This document shows, one piece after another, positions 5,395 through 64,000 of a stretch of 64,000 nt of DNA. Positions within the stretch are counted from its first letter, which is position 1. Each line of letters begins with the position of its first letter. The notes beneath the pieces were generated by a model. The model did not search any database. It had not been told where the DNA came from and saw nothing but the letters and a program-made list of their open reading frames with translations. Source of the stretch: Chryseobacterium foetidum (GTDB lineage Bacteria > Bacteroidota > Bacteroidia > Flavobacteriales > Weeksellaceae); assembly GCF_025457425.1 (NCBI RefSeq), contig NZ_JAMXIA010000002.1, positions 1-64,000 on the forward strand. The letters run 5' to 3'. The position numbers and the translations under genes are program-made.

Positions 5395-7485
5395 ATGAAA
5401 GCAATTATCGCAGAAAAACCCAGTGTTGCGAGAGAAATCGCTCAGCTTCTTAATGTCAAAGAACAAAAAAACGGTTATTTAACAGGCAACGGTTACTGTA
5501 TAACGTGGGCATTGGGACATCTTGTCTCGCTGGCCCTGCCGGAAGATTACAGCACTCCCTCTTTTCACAGAGAATCTCTACCCATTATTCCAGATCCTTT
5601 CCAACTCACCCAAAGGAAAATCAAAAAAGGAAAATCTTACCATCCTGACCCAAATGCAACAAAACAACTCAGGATTATCCAGAAAGTCTTTAATCAGTGC
5701 AGTTGTATTATTGTAGCAACCGATGCAGGGCGTGAAGGAGAGTTGATATTCAGATATATCTATGATTATCTGAAATGTACAAAACCATTTGAAAGACTTT
5801 GGATCAGTTCACTGACAGAAAAAGCAATTGCTGAAGGATTCCAAAAGTTAAAGCCTGGAAAAGATTTCGACGGGTTGTATACAGCAGGAAAAGTAAGAAG
5901 TGAAGCGGATTGGCTGGTGGGTATCAATGCTTCGCAGGCTCTGAGTATTTCATCAGGCAGCGGAATTTATTCTTTAGGTAGGGTTCAGACCCCGACACTT
6001 TCATTAATCTGCAAAAGATTCCAGGAACATCAGAATTTCAACGTTAAAAAATACTGGCAGATTCAATTAAAACATCGAAAAAGTTTTATCGACTTCAAGA
6101 GTGATTCATCGGATCACTGGGAAGATAAAAAATCAGCGGAACAAATTCTTAAATCAATCGGGCGGGAAGGAAAGGCTGAGGTTGTGGATGTACAGACGAA
6201 AACAATTTCAGAACCCGCTCCTTTGCTTTTTGACCTTACTGCTTTACAGAAAGTAGCGAACCGCAGACTTAGTTTTTCAGCGGATGAGACTTTGGAGATT
6301 GCTCAACGTCTGTATGAGAAGAAATTCATCACCTATCCAAGGACAGGAAGCCGGTATATTCCTGAAGATGTCTGGTCAGAAATTCCAGAGCTCGTAAGAT
6401 GTCTGAGAAATCATGAGCAATTTAAAAAAGCTTCTTCCATGCTCCAGTTTGGAAATTTCAATAAAAGGATTGTGAATGATGCTAAAGTTACAGATCATCA
6501 CGGATTATTGATTACCGGTAAAATTCCGTCATCATTATCTGCAAAAGAGAATGCAGTATACGACCTCATTGCTTTTAATCTTTTGGAGACCTTGAGTGAT
6601 GACTGTATCAAAGAGCAGTACTGCATAATCTTAAAAGTACATCACTATGAGTTCAATTCAAAAGCTGTAAAAATTCGGCAAATGGGCTGGCGTTCAGTGA
6701 AAGGAATCCTGTCAGAAGAAGCAAATGACAATACTGCAGAAATCCTTAGTGAATTCCCGGATGTCAAAACCGGAGATGATTTAAAAATTTCTCATTTGGA
6801 AATTCAGGAAAAATCGACTCAGCCGGCAAAACTCTTCACAGAAGCAGATGTATTATCAGCGATGGAAAATGCAGGCAAACATCTCGATAATAAAGAACAG
6901 CAAAAAGTTATACAAAATATTGGAATCGGCACCCCTGCAACAAGAGCATCAATCATTGAAACCCTGCTAAAAAGAGATTATATCCAGCGCCAAAAAAAGA
7001 CAATTATACCTACTCAAAAAGGACTGCATATTTATGAACTGGTTAAAGATAAAAAGATTGCGAGCGTAGAGATGACTGCAGAGTGGGAGATGGCGTTCTA
7101 TAAAATAGAGCAAGGACAGCTGGACGCAGAGTACTTCCTCAATAACATAAAAGAATATACTTCGCAGATCACTGTTGAACTTTTATCTCTGCTCATTCCG
7201 AAAGAAGAAGTTCCCAAACTCACCTGTCCAAAATGTAAAAGTCACGAATTAATTATTAATGACAAAGTGTTTAAATGCCTTGATGAAATATGTTCATGGA
7301 TTCAGTTCCGCAGGATATGTGGTGTTCAGCTTTCTGTCAATGATATCTGCCTGCTGATCGAAAAAGGCAGGACTGATCTCATTAAAAATCTAAAAAGTAA
7401 GGCAGGAAAAACGTTTGAAGCGTTTATTGTTCTGCAGTCTGACCTCACGACGAGATTCAAATTTCCGGATAAAAAAAAGAATTAG
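5395..7485 (+). CDS. topB: DNA topoisomerase III, type IA
   Basis: This 696-aa enzyme relaxes and decatenates DNA by single-strand passage. The Toprim domain starts at residue 1 with IIAEKPSVARE and contains D110-A-G-R-E114-G-E116. The catalytic tyrosine is Y314 in ITYPRTGSRYIP. A C-terminal Cys pair motif (CPKC, then C and C about 20 residues on) looks like one zinc ribbon. The length fits the TopB family. Element-borne TopB copies are conserved in Bacteroidota ICEs and are thought to help excision or transfer. It lies between the DUF3945 and DUF1896 genes in the same orientation. Confidence 0.95.
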   Translation: MKAIIAEKPSVAREIAQLLNVKEQKNGYLTGNGYCITWALGHLVSLALPEDYSTPSFHRESLPIIPDPFQLTQRKIKKGKSYHPDPNATKQLRIIQKVFNQCSCIIVATDAGREGELIFRYIYDYLKCTKPFERLWISSLTEKAIAEGFQKLKPGKDFDGLYTAGKVRSEADWLVGINASQALSISSGSGIYSLGRVQTPTLSLICKRFQEHQNFNVKKYWQIQLKHRKSFIDFKSDSSDHWEDKKSAEQILKSIGREGKAEVVDVQTKTISEPAPLLFDLTALQKVANRRLSFSADETLEIAQRLYEKKFITYPRTGSRYIPEDVWSEIPELVRCLRNHEQFKKASSMLQFGNFNKRIVNDAKVTDHHGLLITGKIPSSLSAKENAVYDLIAFNLLETLSDDCIKEQYCIILKVHHYEFNSKAVKIRQMGWRSVKGILSEEANDNTAEILSEFPDVKTGDDLKISHLEIQEKSTQPAKLFTEADVLSAMENAGKHLDNKEQQKVIQNIGIGTPATRASIIETLLKRDYIQRQKKTIIPTQKGLHIYELVKDKKIASVEMTAEWEMAFYKIEQGQLDAEYFLNNIKEYTSQITVELLSLLIPKEEVPKLTCPKCKSHELIINDKVFKCLDEICSWIQFRRICGVQLSVNDICLLIEKGRTDLIKNLKSKAGKTFEAFIVLQSDLTTRFKFPDKKKN

Positions 7486-10900: not shown

Positions 10901-13377
10901 CCCAAGAGATGAAGCGGTTAGGTCTTGCTCACAAACCTATGATTATTGGATTAAAGGCCAACGTTCATGAAATCGCTGAAACCTACCGGACTGCATACCC
11001 GCACGCAAAATTATTATATCCTGGCAAAGAAGATTTTACCCCGCAAAAAAGGTTGCGCATCTTTGGAGATATTAAAAATAATGACTGGGACTGCATCATT
11101 TTAACGCATGACCAGTTCGGAATGATTCCCCAGTCTCCCGAACTGCAAAAAGAGATTTTAGAAAATGAACTTAAAAGCGTTGAACAAAATTTGTCGGCAT
11201 TAGAAGCTCAGGGAAAAGAAATCTCAAGAGCAATGCTCAAAGGAGTGTTGGTAAGAAAGCAGAATCTGGAAGTCAAACTGAAAACATTGGCCCATGATAT
11301 TGACAACAGAAAGGACGAAGTGGTTGATTTTAAAATGATGGGCATTGATCATCTGTTGGTTGATGAGAGTCATCGCTTCAAAAACCTGGTGTTCAATACG
11401 CGTCATGACAGAGTTGCAGGATTAGGCAATATGCAGGGAAGTCAAAAGGCGATGAACCTGCTTTTTGCAATCCGTACCATACAGAAACGTACCGGAAAGG
11501 ATATGGGTGCTACTTTCCTTTCGGGTACTACCATCAGCAACTCGTTAACGGAACTGTATTTACTTTTTAAATATCTTCGTCCAAAAGCTCTGGAAAAACA
11601 GGGAATCAACTGCTTTGATGCGTGGGCAGCGATCTACGCCCGTAAAACAACTGACTATGAATTTTCAGTAGCCAATAATATTGTACAGAAAGAACGGTTT
11701 CGGTATTTCATCAAAGTTCCTGAACTTGCACAGTTCTATTCAGAAATTACAGATTATCGGACAGCCAGGGATATCGGTATTGACCGGCCCGAAAAGAATG
11801 AAATCCTGTATAACATTCCGCCCACCCCCGATCAGGAAATATTTATAAAAAATTTAATGGAATTTGCAAAATCCGGCAATGCCGTACTTTTAGGCAGAGA
11901 ACCACTTTCACCATCCGAGGAAAAAGCAAAGATGCTGATCGCTACCGATTATGCAAGAAAGATGTCACTGGATATGCGTATGATCAGTGAAGACTATTCA
12001 GATCATCCTGACAGCAAGGCATCTCACTGTGCTAAAACAATCTCTGACTACTACCAGCGGTTTAATGCTCAGAAAGGATCTCAATTTGTATTTTCGGATC
12101 TTGGAACATATAAACCTAATACATGGAATGTTTATTCAGAGATCAGAAGAAAACTTACGGAAGATTATGGCCTTCCGTCAAACGAAATCCGGTTTATTCA
12201 GGAAGCAAAAAATGATAAGCAGAGAAAAGACCTCATTAATTCTATGAATGAAGGCCGTGTTCGGGTATTATTCGGCTCAACAGATATGCTTGGAACGGGA
12301 GTCAACGCTCAGAAAAGAGCAGTAGCCATTCATCATCTCGATACCCCCTGGCGACCGAGCGATCTGGCTCAGCGAGATGGTAGAGCAATTCGGAAGGGAA
12401 ATGAAATTGCCAAACATTTTGCTGATAATAAAGTTGATGTGATTATTTATGCTGTGGAAAAATCTTTGGACAGTTATAAATTTAATCTTTTGTACAACAA
12501 ACAACTATTCATCGATCAGCTTAAAAACAACAGTTTAAATAAGCGCACGATTGATGAAGGAAGTATGGATGAAAAATCAGGAATGAACTTTTCGGAATAT
12601 GTAGCAATCTTATCAGGCAATACCGATCTTTTAGAAAAAGCAAAACTGGAAAAAATGATCAACGGTTTAGAAAGTGAAAGGCATTCTTTTAATCGTTCTA
12701 AAATGAGTTCCAGGTATAAACTGGAAGATCTCTCTGCATCGTTGGAAAACTCCAGCTCAAAATTGCATAAAATGAGAACTGACTGGAATAATCTGCAGAA
12801 ACGAATCCGGCATACACCGGACGGAACAATTGCCAACCCTGTTCAACTGAATGATCTTCCCGGGACTGCAGATATAAAATCAATAGGTTCAAAACTGAAG
12901 GAACTCTCTTCAAAGGCAAGAACGGCAGGGCAGTATGAGGAAATTGGAGAACTTTATGGTTTCAGGTTACTGGTCAAAACAGAAGTTTCGGAAAAAGAAG
13001 GAATGGATATCAAAATCAACCGTTTTTTTATCACCGGTGAAGGCAATATCAAATATTCTTACAACAATGGTTTGGTTGCTTCCGATCCCAAATTGGCAGC
13101 AATGAATTTTCTCAATGCATTGGAAAAACTTCCCACACTCATCAGGCAGGAAGAGAAAAAAGTAAATGAAATGAAGACCGACATCCCGGTTCTCACTGAA
13201 ATTGTCAGCAGCATGTGGCAGAAAGAAACTTTATTATCGAACTATAAAAATGATTTAGCTGCGATAGAACGCAAGATTCAATTATCACTGACAGACCATT
13301 CAGAACCTCAGAGCGTTGAAAAAACATGTGATGAAGTAAAAAAAACTATTCAGATTAGAAAGAATATTAATTTTTAG
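7966..13377 (+). CDS. Giant N6-adenine methylase-like / SNF2-type helicase fusion
   Basis: The protein has 1803 aa from ATG 7966. An in-frame ATG at 7957 also exists, but the later one aligns better with how this family usually begins. The N-terminal third is an adenine-methylase fold with motif [10 protein letters not shown] (about residue 130) and a catalytic-loop variant SNIPFGD (about 209) instead of NPPY. A low-complexity linker follows (about 405-540). The C-terminal half is a superfamily 2 helicase with Walker A GAGKT (about 967), DESH (about 1132) and motif [12 protein letters not shown] (about 1468), ending in a coiled-coil-rich tail. This family is a hallmark of Bacteroidota ICEs. 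Roles in anti-restriction or element DNA processing have been supposed, not shown here. Confidence 0.9.
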
Positions 13378-14231: not shown

Positions 14232-15191
14232 TTATTGCTGAAATTCAACTAAAAAACAATTGACGTTATTATGATTTGAAGGATAATCATTCCATGGCTG
14301 CGCGCTGGTGTAGTTCCCTATAGTTCTGGTTAATCCATCATTACGTGCCCAGGTATGGACAAAACCCTCACCAATATTATAGTTATTTGGCTCATTAGGT
14401 GCAAACCAATTAGATTTTTTCACCGCACCAGTGCCCTGAAGTTCATAATTATGTAAAGGCAGTTCACCCGTAATCCATTTAAAATCAGGATCGGGAGTTA
14501 ATGCCGGGCCAGCTTCCCATGAAAATTTAACAAATCCCATCCATGCTTTTTGGCTCGCGAAAACGGGGCTGTTAGTTAAAAGGTTACTTTCCACAAACTG
14601 CCATTCTACGTCTGTAGTAAATGTTGCAAGGTAACCTCCCAATGATTTTGCAGCATTATATGCCTGAAACCAGTCAAGAGGTTGCGGACCTGAATAAACA
14701 GTGTAAGAATGCGAGTTAGCTGCATGAATAATTACATTTTGTTTTGTATATGTAATTCCATTGATCAGCATTGTCGCAGGAGCTGATGATGCAGTGGAAG
14801 TTTTACTTGGGATATAACCTAAAATATTTGGATCTACAGTTGTTGAGTAGCTGATGATGGTATTATTGACAATCTTCCCCATGCTTTTCCAGACTGTACC
14901 GTCGAAATAGTAGTAACCGGCTTTAGTAATATTAATCGTTTTCGCATCTGTTGATGTTGGTGCCGATGTAGCGTAAATAATAGTTCCTGTCTGATCAGCA
15001 AGGTATTGACTGCCTGCATTTTTAATTTGGTCGCCTGTGAGGCGTGGCATCATAATTCCTTCGGCAGTTGTCCCGTCAGTTTTTACTGCCGTTACATCCA
15101 GTGTAGATGCTGCCTGAGTCGTACCTATTCCTATCTGAGCAGATACTATCAGTGAATAAGCCAATAAACCAGATATTAAAATTTTTTTCAT
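14232..15191 (-). CDS. Secreted C-type lectin-like protein with EPN motif
   Basis: The protein has 319 aa. It carries a signal peptide (about 1-18, ending VSAQ). An N-terminal exported module follows (about 19-105) with IGIGTT, MMPRLTGDQ and GYYYFDGTVW. The C-type lectin-like domain spans about residues 145-319, with LGGYLATFTT, WMGF, FKWITGE, the EPN triad at residue 267 (codons 14385-14393) and PWND. In animal C-type lectins EPN plus WND binds calcium and mannose-type sugars. The canonical disulfide cysteines are missing, as in many bacterial versions. It is second in a two-gene operon, 11 nt after its paralogue. No T9SS sorting domain is seen. Sugar specificity is inferred from the motif only. 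Confidence 0.88.
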   Translation of the reverse strand: MKKILISGLLAYSLIVSAQIGIGTTQAASTLDVTAVKTDGTTAEGIMMPRLTGDQIKNAGSQYLADQTGTIIYATSAPTSTDAKTINITKAGYYYFDGTVWKSMGKIVNNTIISYSTTVDPNILGYIPSKTSTASSAPATMLINGITYTKQNVIIHAANSHSYTVYSGPQPLDWFQAYNAAKSLGGYLATFTTDVEWQFVESNLLTNSPVFASQKAWMGFVKFSWEAGPALTPDPDFKWITGELPLHNYELQGTGAVKKSNWFAPNEPNNYNIGEGFVHTWARNDGLTRTIGNYTSAQPWNDYPSNHNNVNCFLVEFQQ

Positions 15192-15202
15192 ACTACAGAA
15201 TA

Positions 15203-16192
15203 TTATTGTTGAAATTCCACGATAAATCCGAATCTACCAGCTGCATCTGCCTTCTGGTCATTCCAAGGATGATTAGAAGTATACCCATTAAGCACCTTAT
15301 TGAACGAAGCATTTCCCCTGTACGTATGGACAAATCCTTCAACGCCTTGGGCATTATCGGGTTGACCTGCCTGAAACCAATTCGATTTCCTAACTGCTGT
15401 TACTCCACCGGCGCTATAATCATGTAATGGCTGCTCACCAGTAATCCATTTTTCTTCAGGATCTGGAGTTAGGGCAGGACCCGCAAACCATGAAAATTTT
15501 GCAAATCCAATCCATGCATTATTTGTTACAAATGCAGTATTGGAAAGTAGATTTGTCTCTATATGTTTCCATTCATCATCAGTTGTAAATGTTGCCAGGT
15601 ATCCGCCCATGTTTTTTGCCAATATATAAGCAGCATACCATGAAAGATTGTCTGCTGATGCAGAATAAGCAGCATATGAATGACCATTCAAAGTTGTGAT
15701 ACCTGTTCTTGTCATAGTTATTGTTCCGGAAGTCACACTTGCAGGAGCACTGTTTATGGCGGTTGCTGTCGTACTTGGAACATAGCCAAGAATATTGGGA
15801 TCAATTATAGAACTGATGCTTAATGTTGTTGTTGTGCTTTGTGCTCCCATCCCATTCCACACAGCTCCGTCAAAATAATAATAACCGGGCGCAGTAATAT
15901 TGACTGTTTTTGCAGTTGTAGTTGTCGGAACCGAAGTAGCATATACTATAACTCCTGTTTGAGAAGGTTGATACTGATCGTTAGCAGCCACGAGCTGATT
16001 TCCTGTAAGTCTTGGTGCGATAACACCTTCAGGAGAAGAACCATTTGTGTTTTTGGCAGTAACATCGAGGGTGGCTTTAGGGGTAGCAGTATTGATTCCT
16101 ACCTGTGCTTTTGCGTTACTGAATAAAATTAAGGGGATTGACACAGCAGCAATTTTAACTGTTGTGTAAACATTTCTTTTTCTTTTTTTCAT
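15203..16192 (-). CDS. Secreted C-type lectin-like protein with QPD motif
   Basis: This 329-aa paralogue of the next gene has the same order of parts. There is a basic signal peptide (about 1-30, ending AKAQ), the exported module (VGINTATP, IAPRLTGNQ, GYYYFDGAVW) and a lectin domain with MGGYLATFTTDDEW, WIGFAKF, EKWITGE and PWND. Here the specificity triad is QPD (Q277, codons 15356-15364) at exactly the position of EPN in the neighbour. QPD marks galactose-type recognition in animal C-type lectins. The pair therefore looks like a duplication followed by a change of ligand class. The promoter must lie in the AT-rich stretch upstream. Confidence 0.88.
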   Translation of the reverse strand: MKKRKRNVYTTVKIAAVSIPLILFSNAKAQVGINTATPKATLDVTAKNTNGSSPEGVIAPRLTGNQLVAANDQYQPSQTGVIVYATSVPTTTTAKTVNITAPGYYYFDGAVWNGMGAQSTTTTLSISSIIDPNILGYVPSTTATAINSAPASVTSGTITMTRTGITTLNGHSYAAYSASADNLSWYAAYILAKNMGGYLATFTTDDEWKHIETNLLSNTAFVTNNAWIGFAKFSWFAGPALTPDPEEKWITGEQPLHDYSAGGVTAVRKSNWFQAGQPDNAQGVEGFVHTYRGNASFNKVLNGYTSNHPWNDQKADAAGRFGFIVEFQQ

Positions 16193-16742: not shown

Positions 16743-16750
16743 TATTTTTG
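16743..16750 (+). promoter_or_regulatory. Candidate Bacteroidota minus-7 box (TATTTTTG)
   Basis: The sequence matches the TANNTTTG consensus and lies just before the first module gene. It overlaps the TTG at 16748, which argues against that TTG being the start codon. No clear minus-33 element was found. Confidence 0.4.
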
Positions 16751-17422
16751 CCAGCGAAAAATAATGCCATTAACTGTCTCAAAAAAATAACGGGAATATC
16801 TGTAAGCGAAAAGAAATTATCTTTTTTTGTTTATAAGATTTTTACGATACTGCTTACCGTAGTAATTCCTTCATTATGCGTATTTATCAAAGCACAGCAG
16901 GAAGGCATAGTTGTGATAGGTAATGGTGCAGAGATTTATTCAAATGATATAGATTTCAACAAGAATATTATATCAGCTGGGAGGTATGAATTAGTGTCAA
17001 CATCTGACAAGGCTGTTGTCTTGGGATACAAATTTGTTGCTTCCGGTGCTTCAAGGGCGAGGAAAGATATTTCGAAGCTTAAATCGAAAAATCAAAGAAA
17101 AAGACAGGATAAAATTTTTTCAGAAAAAAAAATTGAAAAGGCTTTTCCTGCTAACTATGAATTCGCTGTTCGCAGACACGTCATTATCAATGCTGTTCCA
17201 CCACCATCACAATTTGTTAGTTCTTCAAAAATCTGCAAGGCATATGTAGTACCAGGTGGCAATGACAACAGTAATTTCAAGGCCTCTGCAATTTTCAGGT
17301 CTGTTCCTGTCATTTTATGTCTTGGTCTCCTTCATTGTGTTAAATATCAGGACTACAGCAGTAAGGCGCTCTCTGCTCTTTATTTAAAGGTCTATACTGT
17401 CCGGCCACCGCCGAAGATTTAG
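16748..17422 (+). CDS. Exported protein ending VRPPP, module 1 first gene
   Basis: The open frame encodes about 224 aa of unknown function. A hydrophobic export segment (about 25-48, ending KAQQ) is followed by VIGNGAEIYSNDIDFN, a Lys/Arg-rich middle and the end VYTVRPPPKI. The gene at 22567 encodes the same plan: NIVIFNSEEV, MDADFN, a basic middle and the end VYSVRPPP. I therefore group them as one new family. The start is unclear. The frame opens only with TTG, which overlaps a promoter-like box. The only nearby ATG (16764) is one frame off and meets a stop after an A7 run (16781-16787). Either a non-ATG start or slippage on A7 is needed. A large and a small exported protein follow on the same strand. 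Confidence 0.65.
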   Translation: MPAKNNAINCLKKITGISVSEKKLSFFVYKIFTILLTVVIPSLCVFIKAQQEGIVVIGNGAEIYSNDIDFNKNIISAGRYELVSTSDKAVVLGYKFVASGASRARKDISKLKSKNQRKRQDKIFSEKKIEKAFPANYEFAVRRHVIINAVPPPSQFVSSSKICKAYVVPGGNDNSNFKASAIFRSVPVILCLGLLHCVKYQDYSSKALSALYLKVYTVRPPPKI

Positions 17423-17493
17423 TTTTTACAATTTTTTTAACTAAAACCTTAAACTGTTTTTTCATCAGAAGAAACGACATAACCATTATACAT

Positions 17494-19590
17494 ATGACTA
17501 GATATTACAAAGTCTATAAAATTAAATTTTTCTTACTTTTTTTAATTATTTCCGCAGGCTATAGAACTGCAGCACAAATAGTACCTTGTGCAAACAGAAT
17601 TGAAGGAAATCCGATCTACAGTAACACCTTCGGAACGGGAATAGGCACATCGCAGGATGCAAATGTTTTGTTACATCAATATCAGGCAATTACTCCGCCA
17701 GATGGCTCTTACACAGTCACGAGTTCTCCTACTCAGACAGCCTCACACTGTATGACAGATCTGACCGGCAATAAGGATGCAGGTTATAGTGATATAACAG
17801 CAGGTTCAACAGACGGCAGGTATCTAATGATTAATATAGGATCTGCTGCATCAGTAAATTCGGCTATTTACCGTATCAGCAATCTAAGTGTTATCATAGG
17901 TCAGGAATACAGATTTAGAATTGACATTGCAGGTTTGCTTAATAATCCTACCGGTGGTGATGTGCCTAACCTCCAGTTGACTATAAGAGATGGTAACAAT
18001 AACAGTTTGGCAACTGCTAATTCTTCTGCCCTGGGTCTGAAGAATGATGACATCTGGAGAAGACTGACTCTTCCCTTCACTGCCAGCACATCTGTTGTTA
18101 CACTTGAAATTGTCAATTTACAGCCTAACGGTAATAATGGAAATGACGTTGGTATTGATAATATCGTTTTTACACCGGTGGAGTGTGATTCTGATGGTGA
18201 CGGCATACCGAATTCTCTGGATCTCGACGATGATAACGATGGTATCGACGACTGTGCAGAGAAGGGATTTGATCCAAATGCGACTGTGAGTACAATTTTT
18301 AAGCTTGGCGGTACCGCTACGCAGGTTAACACGAAGCAGGTACAGCTGACTCCCGCTTTAAATACTCAAGCAGGTCAAATGTGGTCTTACGGTAAAGTTG
18401 ATTTTGCTAAAAGTTTTACAATTAGTTACGAAGCAAATTTTGGTAGCAGCGATAGTGGTGCAGATGGAATTGCGACAGTATTTCACAATTCTCCTGCTGG
18501 CGTGGACGCTGTCGGTGGTGCAGGTGGTGGTGTTGGCGCTCTGGGTATTGCCAACGGTATAGTCCTGGAAGTTGATACATATGACAACGGAACCGCTGTA
18601 GGAGATATAGCAAATGACCACGGACAAATATGGGTATCAAGTAACCAGGCTGGAGCAGGATTGCTTACTACGGCAAGGGATCTTGGGAACGTAGAAGACG
18701 GTGTTTGGAGAACTGTAGTTATTACGTGGGATTTTCCCACCAAAAGATTGCAGTACACGGTTGGAGGTATATTGGCAGGATCTCACGTGTTTCCTGCATC
18801 AAATCCTATTACAAGCTATTTTGGGAATGTAAGTAATGTATACTTTGGTTACACCGCTTCGACAGGGGGCGCCGTCAATCAGCAAAGTGTTCGATATACT
18901 GATTTTTGTTCTCAGCTTCCTATAGAACTTGATACGGATGGAGATGGAATTGCAAATCATCTTGATGTTGATTCAGACAATGACGGGTGTCCTGATGCTT
19001 TGGAAGGAAATGAGAATGTTACATACAATATGATTAATCCTATGACTTCAACAACGTTCCCTGGACAGATCAGGGTAAGATTTGATGGTGTAACCGTTGG
19101 AACTCCCTCTCAGATTATCAGCACAGCAACTTTGGCCAACGGTATTCCTCAGGTTGTAAATAACGCTGCGAATAATACAAATTCAAGTATAGGTCTTTCC
19201 AATACACAGGGAGTAGCTGATGTGGGCTTCAATTCCATAGGACAAACAATCGGAACTTCTCAAAATGCTTCATTGAAGGATCTTGAGTGCAGATGTTTCA
19301 GACCTGCTGCATCTCCGGGTGTTGGTGGTTCCCCAACAAATCATGGTATTACTTCTCTGGGTCGGGCAGGAGATGCCAACGGAAACTGGCCAATGAAAAT
19401 CAGAGGTGCTTATACGGTAATGGATTCCAAAAGCAATGGTTTTGTTGTTAACAGACTAAATACGCAACAGATAGCGGGATTAACTGCTGTTAAAGGTATG
19501 ATGGTGTACGATACTGATTCCAACTGTCTTAAAATATATAATGGTACTGTTTGGGCATGTTACACAAGACAAACCTGTGATCAATTTTAA
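17494..19590 (+). CDS. Large exported protein with L-type lectin domain, module 1
   Basis: The protein has 698 aa and a signal peptide (about 1-28, ending TAAQ). A beta-sandwich, carbohydrate-binding-like region lies at about 30-228. A thrombospondin type 3 calcium repeat follows (CDSDGDGIPNSLDLDDDNDG). An L-type (legume-like) lectin domain spans about 265-470, with ADGIATVFHN and LEVDTYDNG. A second type 3 repeat (DTDGDGIANHLDVDSDNDG) comes next. The last 100 residues form a module (HGITSLGRAG, NWPM, GFVVNRL, GMMVYDTDSNCLKIYNGTVW) shared with the large proteins at 21026 and 62798. It probably displays a sugar-binding front domain at the cell surface. The small partner follows after 20 nt. 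No typical T9SS domain is seen. Confidence 0.85.
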   Translation: MTRYYKVYKIKFFLLFLIISAGYRTAAQIVPCANRIEGNPIYSNTFGTGIGTSQDANVLLHQYQAITPPDGSYTVTSSPTQTASHCMTDLTGNKDAGYSDITAGSTDGRYLMINIGSAASVNSAIYRISNLSVIIGQEYRFRIDIAGLLNNPTGGDVPNLQLTIRDGNNNSLATANSSALGLKNDDIWRRLTLPFTASTSVVTLEIVNLQPNGNNGNDVGIDNIVFTPVECDSDGDGIPNSLDLDDDNDGIDDCAEKGFDPNATVSTIFKLGGTATQVNTKQVQLTPALNTQAGQMWSYGKVDFAKSFTISYEANFGSSDSGADGIATVFHNSPAGVDAVGGAGGGVGALGIANGIVLEVDTYDNGTAVGDIANDHGQIWVSSNQAGAGLLTTARDLGNVEDGVWRTVVITWDFPTKRLQYTVGGILAGSHVFPASNPITSYFGNVSNVYFGYTASTGGAVNQQSVRYTDFCSQLPIELDTDGDGIANHLDVDSDNDGCPDALEGNENVTYNMINPMTSTTFPGQIRVRFDGVTVGTPSQIISTATLANGIPQVVNNAANNTNSSIGLSNTQGVADVGFNSIGQTIGTSQNASLKDLECRCFRPAASPGVGGSPTNHGITSLGRAGDANGNWPMKIRGAYTVMDSKSNGFVVNRLNTQQIAGLTAVKGMMVYDTDSNCLKIYNGTVWACYTRQTCDQF

Positions 19591-19610
19591 CTTTATTAAT
19601 GTATTAAATA

Positions 19611-20204
19611 ATGAAAAAATATATAGCGATAACGCTGATTCTGGTATTTTCAAAAAGCTGGTCTCAAATTTCTATAGGAAAAACAGAAAACTCAGGAACA
19701 CCCGTTAATAGTTCTGTCTCGGTGGAATTCGGAAATGCTACAGGCGGTAGCAAAGGGATTGTGTTACCATGGGTAACCTCTGCTGCTGCTGTGGTTGGTA
19801 ATGCACCTACACCACCGCCGGCTCTGGGTACAATAATTTTCGACAGTTCTGTCCAGAAGGTTATGTATAGAAGAATTCTGAACAACAATACAATTTGGGC
19901 TGACTTATCTGCAGGAGCTAAGACTCCTACATCTCCGAGTCTCCCAGATTCAAACACAGATAACCTTTCAGCCAAAGTTCTTCTCGGTGGAACACCTGCC
20001 ACTGATACTACAAGGGGAGTGTTTGTTTTAGGTGATACTAATAAAGCGATGATTCTGCCAAGGGTAAGTTCTATAAGTGATATAATAAACCCAAGTGCAG
20101 GAATGATGGTCTATGTCACCGGAACAGGCAACGGAACCGGAACAAATTCCAATCAACTTGCTGTTTTTAATGGCAGTGAATGGTCATTCTGGACTCAACC
20201 ATAA
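19611..20204 (+). CDS. Small exported partner protein, module 1
   Basis: This 197-aa protein has a signal peptide (about 1-18). The motif SISIGKTENSG starts the mature part, followed by VEFGNATGGSKGIVLPW. The C-terminal half holds GVFVLGDTNKAMILPRV, PSAGMMVYV and LAVFNGSEWSFW. The same pattern recurs in the proteins at 20385 and 62249. It also resembles the C-terminal module of the large proteins and the N-terminal module of the lectins. It always follows a large gene closely, so it may be a co-exported or co-assembled partner. The function is unknown. Confidence 0.8.
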   Translation: MKKYIAITLILVFSKSWSQISIGKTENSGTPVNSSVSVEFGNATGGSKGIVLPWVTSAAAVVGNAPTPPPALGTIIFDSSVQKVMYRRILNNNTIWADLSAGAKTPTSPSLPDSNTDNLSAKVLLGGTPATDTTRGVFVLGDTNKAMILPRVSSISDIINPSAGMMVYVTGTGNGTGTNSNQLAVFNGSEWSFWTQP

Positions 20205-20223
20205 TATATAATAATTAGAAAGT

Positions 20224-20257
20224 GAATCCGTCTCAAATTTTGTTGTGAGACGGATTC
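20224..20257. terminator. Bidirectional terminator between convergent modules
   Basis: A perfect 12-bp stem (20224-20235 with 20246-20257) with a 10-nt loop lies between the two convergent three-gene modules. T-rich sequence follows on the plus strand. Confidence 0.75.
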
Positions 20258-20384
20258 TTCTGTATTTTTCGTTGCCTACATGTAATTACTTTATACCAGA
20301 GTTCTGAGTTTGACTCCATATCTTGTATCGTAGAATATACCTGTAAAATATTTGAATAAATGTCACACTTCAGCATTTCGACGA

Positions 20385-20984
20385 TTATATTCCTCCCGTA
20401 GTACCACTAGTGTTTGTCGGGAAATCACCTCTCCAGAAGGACCAAACAGATCCGTTGAACACTGCGAGCCTTTTGCTTCCTGCTTTATTTACATATACTA
20501 TCATTCCGGGAGAGGGGCTTAAGATGTCCTGTACGTCTGCAACTATGGGCAATACCATTGCCTTGGTTTTCGACTCAAGGATCAGCACACCATTGGCAGG
20601 ACTTGTTATATCCCCAATAATAGTTTTGGCTGAAGAAGCTTCAGGCGCGCTGGAAAAGTTTGGCTGAACAGTCATGGCATCGGATATATTGGCAGCCTGA
20701 CCGCTGAGATCAAGCCAGCCGTTTGTTCCAAACGAGTTATTGGCATTATAAATTTTCACACGTACTGCCGTTGGATTACTGGCGTCCAGAAGGAGGGTGC
20801 CTTCTGTGGGTGATTGAGGTACGAATCGTACATACGGAAGTATAATTCCTTTATTTTCACCAGCTGCAAATTCCAGCAGTACCGATGTTTTTGTTTCAGC
20901 TGTTCCTATAGCATCGCCAATAATGATTTGTGCATCACATGTGCAAGTCCCCGCCAAAGTTAAGATTAGTACTATTTTTTTCAT
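20385..20984 (-). CDS. Small exported partner protein, module 2
   Basis: The protein has 199 aa. A signal peptide (about 1-18) is followed by QIIIGDAIGTAETKTSVLLEF, GIILPYV and GTLLLDASN. The C-terminal half holds GVLILESKTKAMVLPIV, PSPGMIVYV and LAVFNGSVWSFW. It is a clear paralogue of the protein at 19611 and is related to 62249. It is the last gene of the minus-strand module, 41 nt after the large gene. The function is unknown. A structural or assembly role at the cell surface is inferred from export and pairing. Confidence 0.8.
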   Translation of the reverse strand: MKKIVLILTLAGTCTCDAQIIIGDAIGTAETKTSVLLEFAAGENKGIILPYVRFVPQSPTEGTLLLDASNPTAVRVKIYNANNSFGTNGWLDLSGQAANISDAMTVQPNFSSAPEASSAKTIIGDITSPANGVLILESKTKAMVLPIVADVQDILSPSPGMIVYVNKAGSKRLAVFNGSVWSFWRGDFPTNTSGTTGGI

Positions 20985-21025
20985 TGTATTCTGAGTAAAT
21001 TTATTTTTATATGTCTTTTATATTG

Positions 21026-22471
21026 CTAAGGGCATGTCTGTGTATTGAAACAACTCCAGGCAGTACCATCATATATTTTCAGGCATCTTGCATTAAGATC
21101 GTAGACCATCATTCCTTCCTGTGGAGATACTATTTCGCTAATTTGGGCACTTGTCAGCCGGTTTATTACAAATCCCTTTGTATTTGATTCAAGTACGGTG
21201 TGACCGGATTTTCGGACCATTGGCCAATTGTTGCTTCCACCTCCAGCTCTGTTAAGCATGGTAATTCCGTGTTTTGTATCAGATCCTGTCGCTGAGGTAT
21301 TAGCCGGACTGTAGCATGCACATTCCTGGATAATATAATTGTTTGTTGACGGATAGTACATATCACCAAAAATGGGAGATGAGTCTGATCTAAAATTCGT
21401 GGTGGATCCGTTGGAACCAGCAGGCATTATTTGAAATCTGAAAGTTTCATCCGGTTCCACTATACCGTCATTTACTGAAGCGATACTTATCGCTACACCA
21501 TCTTCATCGTTATTAGGACTGGAATATCCGGTTACCAAGCCCCCATCATAATTTCCGGGCGGAATCGCAATCATGTAATACGGGCTTCCTATTGCATGGG
21601 TAACGATCGGTGTGCCCTGTGAGTTTGAAACGGCAGTCAGTGTAATATCTCCGTCAGAAATGAAAGCAGTTCCGTTTTGAGGATTTACAATCTGTACTGC
21701 AACGACAGTATTTGCAGCAACGGCACCATTGATTCTTAAAAACAATAAACCGTTACTGTTTCCTTCACAAGACGGTAATGCAATGGAGGATTTTAAATCG
21801 ATGAGAGGATTGATGCTAATCCTAATATCATCAAGAAGGTTTCCCAGCCCACTATTTCCGCCGTCGGAAATGGCTCTGAATCCTACTCTGTAAATCCCTG
21901 CCGAACCTGTAAAAGGTGCACTGCTTCCCTGATTAAAGGACCAGAAATTTGTATTTGACGGTGTTGCTGTCGTGCTGATTGTGCTTATAAGATTTTGATT
22001 CTGATCCTCAATTCTCATTGAAGCCTTCTCTGTAGTCAGTACTCTTGCTCGGTGTCTGTAATAAAAGGAGATTACATCTCCGGGTATGAGATACACATTC
22101 TGATAGATCATTGAGCTTTCAAAGGCATTAAGCTCGACAAAATTATTTCCCTGTGCTGCATTTACATTATCGAAAGTGCTGCCCCAGACTTCAATAGCAT
22201 GACAATTGCCTGCTGTTGGCTGTGAACATAGGTTATTTTGGGATTGTGTGGTGTGCCAGGGAGCGGTTATAGCAGATCCTGCATCGAAAGTGGAGCCAAA
22301 TCCAAAATTAGTATCAAGATAATCTACTGTTCCAGGCGTTACCCCAAATTCGAGTCCGGGATTCACAAATACCCGTGCCTGTCCGCAAAGTTGTTGTGTA
22401 TACAAAATAGCAATAATGATACAATACCCCGCCTTTATAAAAGCGGAAAATTTGGTAGAATGAAAAATCAT
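21026..22471 (-). CDS. Large exported protein, module 2
   Basis: The protein has 481 aa. A signal peptide (about 1-31, ending LCGQ) is followed by a jelly-roll-like domain (about 35-215) rich in aromatic and Gly residues. This resembles carbohydrate-binding domains of the DUF642/CBM type by eye. A Calx-beta-like region (about 235-365, with NDGIVEPDETFRFQI) comes next. The C-terminal 100-residue module (HGITMLNRAG, NWPM, GFVINRL, GMMVYDLNARCLKIYDGTAW) is the same as in the large protein at 17494, while the front domains are unrelated to that protein's lectin domain. This suggests a shared tail carrying exchangeable binding domains. Confidence 0.8.
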   Translation of the reverse strand: MIFHSTKFSAFIKAGYCIIIAILYTQQLCGQARVFVNPGLEFGVTPGTVDYLDTNFGFGSTFDAGSAITAPWHTTQSQNNLCSQPTAGNCHAIEVWGSTFDNVNAAQGNNFVELNAFESSMIYQNVYLIPGDVISFYYRHRARVLTTEKASMRIEDQNQNLISTISTTATPSNTNFWSFNQGSSAPFTGSAGIYRVGFRAISDGGNSGLGNLLDDIRISINPLIDLKSSIALPSCEGNSNGLLFLRINGAVAANTVVAVQIVNPQNGTAFISDGDITLTAVSNSQGTPIVTHAIGSPYYMIAIPPGNYDGGLVTGYSSPNNDEDGVAISIASVNDGIVEPDETFRFQIMPAGSNGSTTNFRSDSSPIFGDMYYPSTNNYIIQECACYSPANTSATGSDTKHGITMLNRAGGGSNNWPMVRKSGHTVLESNTKGFVINRLTSAQISEIVSPQEGMMVYDLNARCLKIYDGTAWSCFNTQTCP

Positions 22472-22566
22472 AATGAAAACGTTTTAGTTGTAAGTAAGGG
22501 AGGGTGAGCACATAAAAAATCCTGTGCCTGAAATGTTAAATCTGATGATCTCCGATTTAATAATGT

Positions 22567-23220
22567 TTAGATGGACTTAGAGTCAGGTGGCGGCCTGACA
22601 GAATAAACTGTTACATAACAAAAATCGAAGGATCTGTTATAATAGTAAGGATTGTTATTTGAATACAGATAATCCAGTGCTGTTTTAATGAGAGCTTGGC
22701 ATTGATGTATTCCCTGTTTACACAAGTCATAACAATTCTGCACCGGAAATATATAATCAGTTGAAAAACGATCAGACAGGGAAAATCTATCCTGTGAAGG
22801 CGAATGATATAATTTGATAAACCCAAAATCCTGATAATTTTTACTAAGTTTTGAAGCTTTCCAATTTATTTTCCCTGGCTTTTCCTCTGCAATTTTTGTA
22901 GTTGCTGTATCGGTGTTCTCTGACTGTCCAAGTTTTACGTGTTGCTGTAAAAATTTCTGCCGTCTTCTTTTACTGTCTTTTTTTTTATGGTAAGGATGAT
23001 CAGAATCACCGGGGGACATAGGCGCTGCAATCTGCATATTGAAATCAGCATCCATATAACACACTTCTTCACTGTTAAAAATCACAATATTGGGAGTTTT
23101 ATATTTAGGTTGCATATTGCTTTGTGCATTTGCCAAAATAAATTGAAATATTGTAACTGTCAGAAAGAGAGGCTTAACTGATCTTAAAAGCTGAGAAAAT
23201 TTTATAAATTTTACAAACAT
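22567..23220 (-). CDS. Exported protein ending VRPPP, module 2 first gene
   Basis: The protein has 217 aa from ATG 23220. A longer frame to 23286 exists, but the later start puts a signal peptide (ending ILANAQS) at the N-terminus. After it come NIVIFNSEEV and MDADFN, a Lys/Arg-rich stretch (KKKDSKRRRQ), then a Cys-containing C-terminal half ending FCYVTVYSVRPPPDSKSI. Overall similarity to the protein at 16748 is low but co-linear: export signal, VI-N-E/A-DFN motif, basic middle, VRPPP end. The family is unknown to me. It is the first gene of the minus-strand module. Confidence 0.7.
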   Translation of the reverse strand: MFVKFIKFSQLLRSVKPLFLTVTIFQFILANAQSNMQPKYKTPNIVIFNSEEVCYMDADFNMQIAAPMSPGDSDHPYHKKKDSKRRRQKFLQQHVKLGQSENTDTATTKIAEEKPGKINWKASKLSKNYQDFGFIKLYHSPSQDRFSLSDRFSTDYIFPVQNCYDLCKQGIHQCQALIKTALDYLYSNNNPYYYNRSFDFCYVTVYSVRPPPDSKSI

Positions 23221-23687
23221 ATCTTCAAAAAATAAAATTTTCCGCAAGTGTAATGGTTTATGATGCAATATTAACCAAATTATCACTAATGTAAGAATAT
23301 TTTTATGATATTATGTACCACATAGTAAAAGGTTTTTAATATCAATCAGTATTTATACGGAATTTGGGATTTGACATCTTTAAATAAATCATATTCACAT
23401 GATTTATATGGGATGAAAAATTGATTGTCTTGAAAGTATTTATAAAATTGGAACAGGAATATTTTTGAATATTATAATTGGAAATATCATAAACACTACT
23501 TAGGCCATTAATGGTATACAATGTCTTATGAGTTGTTAATTCTGTAATAATAACTTTAGTTTTTCAATATTGAATATTATATTAATATTTCATAATGTGG
23601 TATTAAATTCTTTAAAAAAGGCTGTTATGTTTATTAATTCGGCATTGAATTTGGATAAAACGTATAACCAACTAAAAAAATTTTATT
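23221..23687. other. Divergent intergenic region
   Basis: About 465 bp of AT-rich DNA between module 2 (minus) and the lamin-tail protein (plus). A 63-aa frame at 23570 overlaps the next gene's start and is not supported. No clear promoter box could be fixed. Confidence 0.45.
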
Positions 23688-62248: not shown

Positions 62249-62779
62249 TTATTTCCAATAGCTCCACGTACTTCCGTCGTATACAGCGAGCATTCCGGAA
62301 TCTGTATCATAAACCATTGTCCCTGCAATAGAACCCTTCAAAGAAGCCTGAGGGTTGCTTACTTTGGGAAGTACTAATGCCCTTGTCGTTGATTCAAGAA
62401 CCAACACACCGGACTTTAAGCTCGAATCCTTTCCAATTATCATACCATTATTTCCCGAAAAATCTCCGCCTGCATTTGAGAAACTGTGTAGTTTTCCCTG
62501 AACACTGTTTTGAGTTAAATTGGTCCAGTTGTCAATGGTATTATTTTTTTCTTCCTTGACCTTCACAGATTTATCTGTAGCATCGAATATAAATGTACCT
62601 CCTGCAGCCAGGGCAGAAGTGTTAACCTGTGGCAGAATTATTCCTTTCGGTTCACTTCCAAATTCAAGAAGTACACTGCTGTTGGAAAGTGTTGTTGTTC
62701 CTATCCCTATTTGTGCATGTAAGCTATGTGATGCAAGTGTGATCAGAATTAACTGCGTAGTGTATAATATCTTTTTCAT
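62249..62779 (-). CDS. Small exported partner protein, module 3
   Basis: The protein has 176 aa. A signal peptide (about 1-22, ending LHAQ) is followed by IGIGTTTLSNSSVLLEF, KGIILPQV and FIFDATDKSVKV. The C-terminal half holds GVLVLESTTRALVLPKV, GTMVYDTDSGMLAVYDGSTW and a final WSYWK. It is paralogous to the proteins at 19611 and 20385 and again sits just after a large exported protein (18 nt). Confidence 0.82.
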   Translation of the reverse strand: MKKILYTTQLILITLASHSLHAQIGIGTTTLSNSSVLLEFGSEPKGIILPQVNTSALAAGGTFIFDATDKSVKVKEEKNNTIDNWTNLTQNSVQGKLHSFSNAGGDFSGNNGMIIGKDSSLKSGVLVLESTTRALVLPKVSNPQASLKGSIAGTMVYDTDSGMLAVYDGSTWSYWK

Positions 62780-62797: not shown

Positions 62798-64000
62798 TTA
62801 TTCTTCATTACATCCCCTCACGATACAGTTCCATCCGACACGTGATTTATCAACTCCGGGACTGCTTCCTCTGAACATCTGCACGCACTTCAAATCTGTA
62901 TTGTAGATTATCATTCCTTCAACTGCAGAAAGGGCGTTTCTCTGAGCTGTAGTCATGTGAGTAATAACCAGACCTTTGGAATCTGAATCCAAAACCAAGT
63001 GACCGTTCGGAACATTGGTTGGCCATTTGTCAACAGATATTGCCCGCTTTGTTAATATTCCCATTTTTGCAAAACCTGTTGGTGTACCACTCAAGCCAGG
63101 TTTCACACAAGGCAGTCTGTAGAGTCCGAAATTTTTATTCTGAACCGGAGAATCTGATATTTGCACGTTTACGCTGTTAGACAACGTTCCCTCGCTGTTC
63201 CCTACAATCTCATATCCTGACGGAATGCTTAAAGTAACGGTGTAATTTCCTCCCAGTACATTCTGAAAAGAGTAAAAGCCATTAGAGTCGCTCACTGTTG
63301 TGGCTACAGTGTTTCCGTTGCTGTTCTTTAAACTGAGCGTAACATTGGAGAAGGGTAGACCATTTGGAACTCCACCGTTATTATCTTTAAAAACAGTGCC
63401 GCTGACCGGCATACGAAGACTGATCGAATTTTTGTTGTAAGCAGTAAAAGAGAGGTCACTCTGACCAGAAAATATCTGTGTGAATTTTGAAACCTGACTT
63501 GCATTTGAAGCTGTAATTCCCAGATCAGACCAGTCAAGAGCCAGTATCCTTACGTCTCTGGTGTTGTTGCTGTCATTAGGTCCAACGGTAGTATTGTAGG
63601 TAATCGGTGAAGCACTTGCATTGTAAAATTTCCACCTGAATAATCCGAGACTTGTGACCGTTGACAAATCCACACTGAATTCAGTTCCAACAACGGCTCC
63701 GGCGCTGTTTCTGAACGAATAGCGGTCCTGAACATTGCTTATCTGGCCCATCTGTGTGATGAGAAGATCAGGAATTCCGTCACCGATGGATGAAACGTTA
63801 ATGTCCTGGATCTGATAATTTATCTCTGCACTTGAAGGAAAATTAAAAATGGCGGTTCCAATATCCAAACCGTTATTTCCGTCGGTTAAGTATTGTGAAA
63901 GAGGTTGAGATACCGGTATAGGGCTGACGTCTCCGTCACCTCCAAAAGCTCTTCCGACACCGATAAATGTACTGCCTCCGGGTGCAGGGTTCGACGTTAT
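62798..64000 (-). CDS. Large exported protein, module 3 (5' end outside the window)
   Basis: The open frame runs off the right edge, with no stop up to 64000; at least 400 aa are seen. A beta-sandwich region comes first. An SdrD_B-like (collagen-binding B type) repeat follows (GTVFKDNNGGVPNGLPFSNV, GFYSFQNVLGGNYTVTLSIP). Then comes the C-terminal module (MGILTKRAIS, KWPTNVPNGHLVLDSDSKGL, VEGMIIYNTDLKCVQMF, WNCIVRGC) shared, more distantly, with the large proteins at 17494 and 21026. The TTG at 63868 is not the start because the frame is open further upstream. A VRPPP-type gene would be expected beyond the edge. Confidence 0.82.
   Translation of the reverse strand: MTSNPAPGGSTFIGVGRAFGGDGDVSPIPVSQPLSQYLTDGNNGLDIGTAIFNFPSSAEINYQIQDINVSSIGDGIPDLLITQMGQISNVQDRYSFRNSAGAVVGTEFSVDLSTVTSLGLFRWKFYNASASPITYNTTVGPNDSNNTRDVRILALDWSDLGITASNASQVSKFTQIFSGQSDLSFTAYNKNSISLRMPVSGTVFKDNNGGVPNGLPFSNVTLSLKNSNGNTVATTVSDSNGFYSFQNVLGGNYTVTLSIPSGYEIVGNSEGTLSNSVNVQISDSPVQNKNFGLYRLPCVKPGLSGTPTGFAKMGILTKRAISVDKWPTNVPNGHLVLDSDSKGLVITHMTTAQRNALSAVEGMIIYNTDLKCVQMFRGSSPGVDKSRVGWNCIVRGCNEE

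Follow-up and report, generated by a model that had tools for sequence, protein, structure and literature searches.

RPPP-ending exported proteins as probable translation arrest leaders of surface-protein genes in Chryseobacterium

We analyzed a 64,000-nt stretch of DNA from Chryseobacterium foetidum (contig NZ_JAMXIA010000002.1, positions 1–64,000, hereafter the window), i.e., the start of contig 2 of a 3.99-Mb genome. Open reading frame (ORF) calls located two gene triplets that face each other, at 16748–20204 (+) and 23220–20385 (−). Each consists of gene 1, which encodes an exported protein ending in VRPPP and a few further residues, a large gene and the gene of a small partner. Two convergent three-gene modules of the same order, as described in the original prediction, are thus present. 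Comparison across the genus suggests that gene 1 is probably the leader for an exported translation arrest peptide of the RxPP type, on which a stalled ribosome would free the start of the large gene. The parts of the two triplets are listed below.

16748–17422 (+), gene 1, copy 1: signal peptide, basic/helical middle, C-terminal VRPPP-KI; the TTG start was set mechanically and is uncertain
17402–17413 (+), RPPP codons of copy 1 (CGG CCA CCG CCG), proposed stall site, modelled on RAPP and RPPP in PMC12992588 and PMC4176338: P site at the third codon, A site at the fourth
17417–17424 (+), upstream arm of the proposed helix, made up of the gene-1 end with the stop codon and two further bases; from a predicted fold with minimum free energy (MFE) −9.8 and z −1.3, and from the class-level swap test
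17455–17476 (+), internal 9-bp hairpin of the leader RNA, from the predicted fold
17496–17503 (+), downstream arm, overlapping the G of the large-gene ATG (17494); predicted fold, 8-bp run with G-U
17494–19590 (+), large gene 1, 698 amino acids (aa): Pfam Lectin_L-type_dom at aa 264–469, sub-threshold TSP3-like repeat, conserved tail of about 100 residues
19611–20204 (+), small partner 1, 197 aa: seemingly two repeats of a domain akin to the large-gene tail, the repeat being judged by eye
20385–20984 (−), small partner 2, 199 aa: ORF with homology to partner 1
21026–22471 (−), large gene 2, 481 aa: choice_anch_J-like front (below cut-off), conserved tail
22472–22566 (−), leader-to-large intergenic RNA of copy 2: no helix predicted between gene-1 tail and large-gene start, MFE z −0.85
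22585–22596 (−), RPPP codons of copy 2, from the ORF reading
22567–23220 (−), gene 1, copy 2: the ORF opens at 23286, an ATG fitting the signal peptide lies at 23220, and the protein ends VRPPP-DSKSI

The two triplets resemble each other to different degrees along their length. The large proteins are alike only in their last 100 residues or so, as had been predicted (49% identity over the final 99, E 1e-29; no other convincing match). The first and third genes had both been called recognisable paralogues between the copies. For the third genes this was borne out (36% identity over 207 positions, E 1e-26), while for gene 1 it rests on the C-terminus, because BLASTP of copy 1 against copy 2 aligned the last 17 residues only (E 0.001). 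Both copies are matched by a 49-row family profile of which they are themselves rows, copy 1 at 16775–17419 with E 2.1e-37 and copy 2 with E 6.7e-59.

Gene-1 proteins begin with a long N-terminal region and a hydrophobic segment ending in AQ, followed by a variable middle and a conserved C-terminus. The AQ end was judged by eye and from a 21-row alignment, in which Q is invariant and A present in at least 90% of the rows; one row starts inside the segment. No Pfam or NCBIfam family was matched by more than one of 21 members. We collected 77 RPPP-ending leaders across the fetched stretches, with one unrelated ORF described below (L066_13) included and one duplicate stretch dropped. RPPP is followed by 1–9 residues in these, and by 2–6 in 74 of the 77. 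In ten-column blocks of the 49-row alignment the information content is generally 1.0–1.8 bits and rises to 1.9, 2.1, 2.5 and 3.1 bits in the last four blocks. The final 20 or so residues are the best conserved part of the protein. Counted back from the last Pro without gaps, 47 dereplicated members have S at −6 (39 members), F or Y at −7 (41), N at −19 (38), L at −31 (37) and V at −5 (36); the 47-member and the 49-row set had both been selected for RPPP. No invariant Cys was found in the 21- and 49-row alignments, the commonest being at −12 (31/47), within the proposed tunnel stretch.

A profile of the N-terminal part alone found 76 ORFs, one of them a second read of one gene. RPPP with at most eight residues after it ends 71 of these, another (L131) has nine residues after the motif, one (L138) ends in RPPN, and three are truncated or frameshifted. 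This test is softened rather than blind, because the profile rows had been chosen for RPPP; among the loci fetched later, RPPP was present in 11 of 12. The L138 relative (5506–6189, +), which ends in RPPN, yet heads a large/small pair. None of the other 831 genes with 100 aa or more at these loci, together 304,233 aa, contains RPPP. The motif is encoded with six Arg and four Pro codons, and the ratio of nonsynonymous to synonymous substitution rates (dN/dS) is 0.09 in the last 36 codons compared with 0.23 in the rest (seven pairs). Because of the varied codons and the low C-terminal dN/dS we conclude that selection acts on the gene-1 peptide.

A profile search of this genome found 13 full-length copies of the small partner, and a large gene was read upstream of each. 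Members of the gene-1 family head nine of the 13 pairs, the two in the window counted; two of the nine, both at locus L069, are distant members (E 7e-6 and 9e-9). At a tenth pair (L066) the 90-aa ORF L066_13 (12449–12721, −) has a hydrophobic stretch, ends in RPPP-SYP and lies 76 nt before the large-gene start. It scored below zero bits with both gene-1 profiles, and the same leader design may possibly have arisen there independently. The three pairs that lack a leader (L063, L065 and L072) share a variant large-gene tail.

Within the genus, the two-row gene-1 profile matched 29 of 148 genomes and the 49-row profile 39 of 148 at E ≤0.001; 30 of these reached 1e-10 and some others only about 20 bits. 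The small partner was found in 140 of the 148. Strict co-conservation of the three proteins, implied by the original prediction, hence did not hold. In a sample of 296 genomes of the phylum, nine passed for the small partner, i.e., five in the genus, one in its family and three partial matches. Seven passed E 0.001 for gene 1, one of them this genome; the other six, at 20–23 bits, we do not believe, and since about nine candidates per genome were scored, distant members could have been missed. Fourteen loci with gene-1 relatives lie in named genomes; 13 of them carry the label Chryseobacterium, and the remaining one, from a metagenome-assembled genome, the label Flavobacterium.

The genes that follow the 77 leaders were a large gene and small partner in 58, a large gene and then the end of the contig or locus in two, a set of "GINTxxPxxxLDV" genes in seven, other genes in eight, and no readable neighbor in two. 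A gene 1 usually found apart from the pair would have told against the predicted module, and this is not what we saw: the large gene stands directly next in 60 of 77 cases, and the triplet, recurring across many genomes of the genus, is more than a chance arrangement. The alternative set behind seven leaders is made up of three genes for exported proteins of about 250–290 aa. Three of the eight other leaders reach a large gene within three genes, one is followed by a small and then a large gene, two precede an apparently cut large gene or exported protein at the contig end, and L130_1 precedes an exported protein. At the last, L112_5, an ORF without signal peptide intervenes before an exported protein and then a large gene. 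By inspection we saw no sec gene next to the leaders, the next genes being large/small genes or others for signal-peptide proteins (L112_5 uncertain).

Large/small pairs from genomes without a gene-1 match had no RxPP-type upstream ORF near the large-gene start in any of 25 cases (20 stretches; one pair had 95 nt upstream only, and one small gene was a 109-aa fragment). Two incidental PP-ending frames occurred there, at 261 and 312 nt. We considered gene 1 as a fixed structural member of the module and rejected this, as the pair occurs without it in most sampled genomes. Because gene 1 is missing from the pairs of many genomes and heads other exported sets in seven of 77 cases, it behaves as an optional leader and not as part of the chassis.

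The RNA between gene 1 and the next gene was then compared among short leaders, i.e., those with 37–106 nt from the gene-1 stop to the next ATG (57 leaders, 46 after dereplication). The bases that directly follow PPP can pair with the region around the next start, and the sequences involved differ between loci: examples are GUAUUAGUUUAG with UUAAACUAAUAC, UAUUAGCUUA with UAAGCUAAUA, and UUUAUUUAAUU with AAUUAAAUAAA. For the 46 leaders the tail paired with positions −32 to +15 of its own next start at an energy of −6.24, and at −4.23 when partners were swapped; two runs gave z −7.6 and −7.7, each with 0/20,000 swaps. This target had been picked after we noticed that some helices cover the start codon. 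A version with the target ending at the ATG gave z −6.9 (0/20,000), and an earlier, wider test of 64 leaders, long ones included, in which the start position was not used, gave z −6.4 (0/10,000). Paired runs of at least eight bases occurred in 26 of 46 own pairs and 23% of swapped ones, and runs of at least ten in 10 of 46 and 3.8%, respectively. Stricter dereplication left z at −6.6 (37 leaders), −5.7 (22) and −4.6 (17), with 0/20,000 swaps each.

The signal peaks at −20 to −7 from the next ATG (z −6.3). A second, smaller peak of complementarity with the gene-1 tail lies at −56 to −43 (z −3.6) and is perhaps an alternative fold. Swap controls gave z −1.1 with the RPPP codons as arm and −1.1 with the stretch after the stop as target; large-small junctions gave +1.0 and +0.6, 112 other gene pairs +1.3, and reversed arms values between −0.04 and +0.49. 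Compared with shuffles, the folds of the 46 leaders had a mean z of −2.0, with 21 below −2 and 35 below −1. A search of this region for known RNA families gave two sub-threshold microRNA matches only. Taken together, the short leaders give strong comparative evidence for a helix that would mask the start and be opened under a stalled ribosome; for the two window copies the RNA evidence is weak.

We propose the following course of events. The nascent gene-1 chain would enter the export pathway by its signal peptide. At Arg-Pro-Pro-Pro, with about 20–30 conserved residues in the exit tunnel, peptide-bond formation would stop, the P-site tRNA carrying RPP and the A-site tRNA the final Pro. By then the exported part, including a conserved patch around YSxDxxFN, could for the most part be periplasmic and might sense something there. 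The stalled ribosome would cover about 12 nt after PPP (usually 2–6 codons and the stop), i.e., the upstream arm, whose bases when free would pair at the large gene, either with its start codon or with about −20 to −3, and lower its initiation. Stalling would hence expose the large-gene start and switch the large/small module on. Upon release, by export pulling or by a ligand or partner meeting the exported part, gene 1 would be completed, the helix would re-form and the module would be turned down. That the gene-1 peptide stalls, that stalling is the ON state, and how release comes about, we infer. The sequence features of RxPP arrest peptides are present, and the assignment to this class is the most likely one.

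Published work on related peptides is consistent with several of these steps. ApcA, ApdA and ApdP stall when the third codon of RAPP or RAPG occupies the P site and the fourth the A site; their Arg is irreplaceable, and the second position tolerates Pro in ApdA and ApdP, while ApcA tolerates no substitution of its Ala (PMC12992588). With RPPP, ApdP gave 2.4 units compared with 1.9 for wild type in B. subtilis, an arrest close to the wild-type level, and 491 compared with 152 in E. coli, where arrest was partial; ApdA with RPPP gave 12.9 compared with 3.0 (PMC12992588). When EF-P was missing, RPPP in NlpD stalled ribosomes with 70% efficiency, RPP being located in the P site (PMC4176338). The relative F. 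johnsoniae lacks Shine-Dalgarno sites and tunes initiation in part by structure at about −20 to +20 and by A at −3, −12 and −13 (PMC6847099). The helix found here covers this type of initiation-tuning region.

A number of observations weigh against this proposal. In the window's own copies the evidence is slight: the helix of copy 1 is weak, an 8-bp run that includes the G of the start codon in a fold of z −1.3, pairing of tail and start is not predicted for copy 2 (fold z −0.85), and blocking the tail in silico opens neither start (0.71 to 0.70 and 0.77 to 0.77). Over the 46 short leaders, an in silico block of the 12-nt tail raised the openness of the start modestly, from 0.52 to 0.59 with a control block at 0.54; gains above 0.1 were found in 16 of 46 leaders and in 7 of 46 with the control. 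For want of a usable near start, 18 of 75 leaders were left out of the short-leader test, and the start may be wrongly placed in some cases. Long leaders, with a gap of 139–342 nt and 14 with a usable start, gave z −1.8 (452/10,000 swaps). As to the stall itself, stalling at RPPP in NlpD is rescued by EF-P (PMC4176338) and RAPP arrest is not, and most of 14 E. coli and nine B. subtilis RAPP-like sequences were not efficient stallers in vitro (PMC10987492). Finally, conservation extends beyond the C-terminus: the patch in the exported part (columns 61–80, GAxIYSxDxxFN), at 2.4 and 2.1 bits, almost equals it. At about 230 aa gene 1 is long, and purifying selection acts on its exported part, so that the protein may serve a separate function.

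This last point leads to a different account, in which gene 1 is a true exported component of the module, VRPPP serves, together with the conserved residues ahead of it, as a C-terminal tag for sorting, binding or processing, and the helix reflects ordinary translational coupling. Purifying selection on the exported part (dN/dS 0.23), the patch around YSxDxxFN and a length exceeding that of most leaders all fit such a component. However, the large/small pair stands without gene 1 in most sampled genomes, and gene 1 heads other exported genes in seven of 77 cases. L066_13, with no likeness to gene 1, occupies the same place and also ends in RPPP. The AlphaFold2 model of gene 1 is mostly unfolded, with a mean predicted local distance difference test (pLDDT) score of 59 and values below 50 at the conserved end, although this is weak evidence from a shallow alignment; the model was also too poor for a fold search. 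We consider a component role rather unlikely. A leader could also act on transcription, the stalled ribosome shielding the RNA from Rho as in CruR of Bordetella, with no opening of a helix at the start. CruR is a RAPP upstream ORF (uORF) (PMC9426467) with a 162-nt gap (PMC9973294), and the long leaders here, at 139–342 nt without an established helix, as well as the window copies with little or none, would suit this. The short leaders, however, are the majority of the set and carry a specific helix to the start region, and we hold control through Rho to be unlikely.

The leader might instead sense translation itself, i.e., EF-P activity or the supply of prolyl-tRNA on PPP, and not the state of export. 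PPP is the classical EF-P substrate, and the rescue of NlpD stalling (PMC4176338) is in line with this. Such a polyproline attenuator, however, leaves unexplained why the aligned members have a signal peptide and conserved residues before RPPP. It also leaves the Arg unexplained, as HPPP, KPPP, WPPP and others stall strongly in E. coli (PMC4176338) and end none of the 76 ORFs found with the N-terminal profile. We regard it as quite improbable. Very improbable, in our judgment, is that the AT-richness and relatedness of the sequences produce the RNA complementarity as a statistical artefact. The sequences are indeed AT-rich and come from one genus, and runs of at least seven pairs occur in 47.5% of swapped pairs, but partner swaps keep the overall composition, the controls stayed between z −1.1 and +1.3, and the signal survived strict dereplication (17 leaders, z −4.6). 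We retain the RxPP arrest leader as the likely reading of gene 1.

How such a leader would work is suggested by known arrest systems, and the likeness to SecM or CutF drawn here rests on comparative evidence. SecM of E. coli is likewise an exported leader, with the arrest core RAGP at a short distance from the stop; its stalled ribosome opens the RNA at the next start and controls secA through a Shine-Dalgarno site. The lineage studied here, in contrast, lacks Shine-Dalgarno sites (PMC6847099), and the helix covers about −20 to −3. ApdA, ApdP, ApcA and the RQH family of RAPP-type peptides have in common with gene 1 a C-terminal RxPP core near the stop, an N-terminal localization signal, a variable upstream part and the position of a uORF. 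Motif and targets set the two apart: RPPP here compared with RAPP, RGPP or RAPG, and large surface proteins downstream compared with secA, secDF or yidC. In the excerpted text of PMC10987492, RPPP appears only as a search term in two proteomes.

CutF of Rhodobacter capsulatus is the closest worked example of the whole proposed logic. This sensor is exported during its translation and has a Pro-rich C-terminus of a stalling-like kind; the start of the next gene is masked by an mRNA stem-loop, and prolonged stalling switches that gene on (PMC9973294). CutF, however, binds copper by CxxxC and controls a multicopper oxidase (PMC9973294), whereas no such motif is conserved in the exported part here, and many paralogues and surface modules are involved. 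The CutF motif alone did not stall in a LepB test (PMC9973294). CruR of Bordetella pertussis is a uORF with a conserved C-terminal RAPP that sets the expression of an operon with an outer-membrane transporter; it differs by Rho-dependent termination, copper response and a long gap, and its signal peptide is dispensable for relief (PMC9426467). A survey of RAPP/RGPP uORFs found that C-terminal RxPP leaders of small secretory proteins precede genes beyond the Sec pathway (PMC12992588). It took RAPP and RGPP only, and the words "RPPP", "adhesin" and "lectin" are absent from it (PMC12992588).

Among the papers listed in searches of open-licence PMC literature on arrest peptides, stalling leaders and Chryseobacterium or Bacteroidota adhesins, none names the gene-1 family in its title or abstract opening. 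Nascent-chain leaders are known to control genes of protein export and copper handling; as far as we found, no such control of surface adhesins is in print for this bacterial group. New here would be the RPPP core motif, the surface-module target, the lineage without Shine-Dalgarno sites and about ten units in this genome. Tentatively, we envisage some ten parallel switches in a Chryseobacterium genome, in which exported RPPP arrest peptides, many with their own start-masking helix, would each control a different surface lectin or adhesin module. The nascent leader would sense the state of the envelope, i.e., export capacity or a surface partner, before the large protein is made, and the helix would hide the −20 to −3 region used by Bacteroidota ribosomes without Shine-Dalgarno sites. 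If this is true, nascent chains choose which surface modules are displayed, and surface-protein choice in a common environmental genus is tied to events on the ribosome. It would add a large, lineage-specific family of natural arrest peptides with an RPPP core, extend nascent-chain control from export machinery and metals to cell-surface proteins, and show how such control can operate where ribosomes make no use of Shine-Dalgarno sites. Experimental handles would then be at hand in dozens of natural variants that share one motif and differ in helix and tunnel sequence.

The large/small pair recurs a third time in the window, as had been predicted, without gene 1:

62249–62779 (−), small partner of the third pair: ORF, small-partner profile
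62798–64000 (−), large gene of the third pair, with an SdrD_B domain; runs past the window to contig position 64255, 485 aa (locus L072)

The large gene of this pair and large gene 2 are alike in the tail (28% over 107 residues, E 1e-12). In a simple gene list the nearest upstream gene of at least 70 aa starts 2.3 kb away, and no PP-ending frame was found in 1.5 kb upstream. The large proteins are exported and share a common tail behind diverse fronts, the three in the window having an L-type lectin, a choice-of-anchor-J-like region (below cut-off) and the SdrD_B domain. The small-partner profile also matches the large-gene tails, and the small partner seems to hold two copies of a domain related to them. 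Because of the lectin domain, surface binding by the large proteins is plausible. The original prediction had seen in the triplet a binding system with a fixed chassis and exchangeable fronts. For the large/small pair, which travels together with a conserved tail and variable fronts, this description probably fits; gene 1, being optional, falls outside it and is probably the regulator of the pair.

An NCBIfam scan (E up to 1) found no type A/B sorting domain of the type IX secretion system (TIGR04183 or TIGR04131) in the three large proteins of the window, the one at 62798 being scanned as a 356-aa ORF. The predicted model of the small partner (pLDDT 54) was too poor for a fold search, and its profile had no match in the PDB. 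Matches of the profile to PHROGs were scattered, the best (1.3e-8) being to a family without function; a PHROGs family named tail fiber protein was matched by two of 15 small-partner members. Some small partners (L078, L087 and L096) bear an extra C-terminal domain, which presumably resembles a FISUMP repeat. At L127 and L128, from two genomes, a stop or shift just past the likely start separates the signal-peptide frame of the large gene from its body frame, which could be decay, phase variation or a sequencing error.

Between the two modules lies a hairpin:

20225–20256 (strandless), inverted repeat of 11 bp with perfect arms, situated between the modules and belonging to a repeat dispersed over this genome

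It had been predicted to be a terminator shared by both modules. The hairpin is real, and 33–44 nt of it recur at 91–97% identity at no fewer than 12 other sites of the genome (40 of 108 candidates scored). A terminator role is possible, and because two copies, at L006 and L007, stay alike well beyond the hairpin, it is a dispersed repeat as well. The pattern with perfect arms was found once only in the genome; looser copies exist.

A second pair of facing triplets, two genes apart, occurs in the same genome at L064 (G000:C1:1459000–1478900) and adjoins apparent rplK-rplA-rplJ-rplL genes, judged by eye. By text-motif match, 20 of 75 leaders outside the window (e.g., L082, L087, L089 and L096) have rplL upstream or rpoB downstream within eight genes (rpoB 9, rplL 13, both 2), an odd setting for surface proteins. 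In the window, two tandem exported proteins adjoin the module at 14232–16192 (−) and share, by eye, the GxxxPRLT...YYYFDGxxW repeat of the small partners; one of the two has a sub-threshold C-type lectin match.

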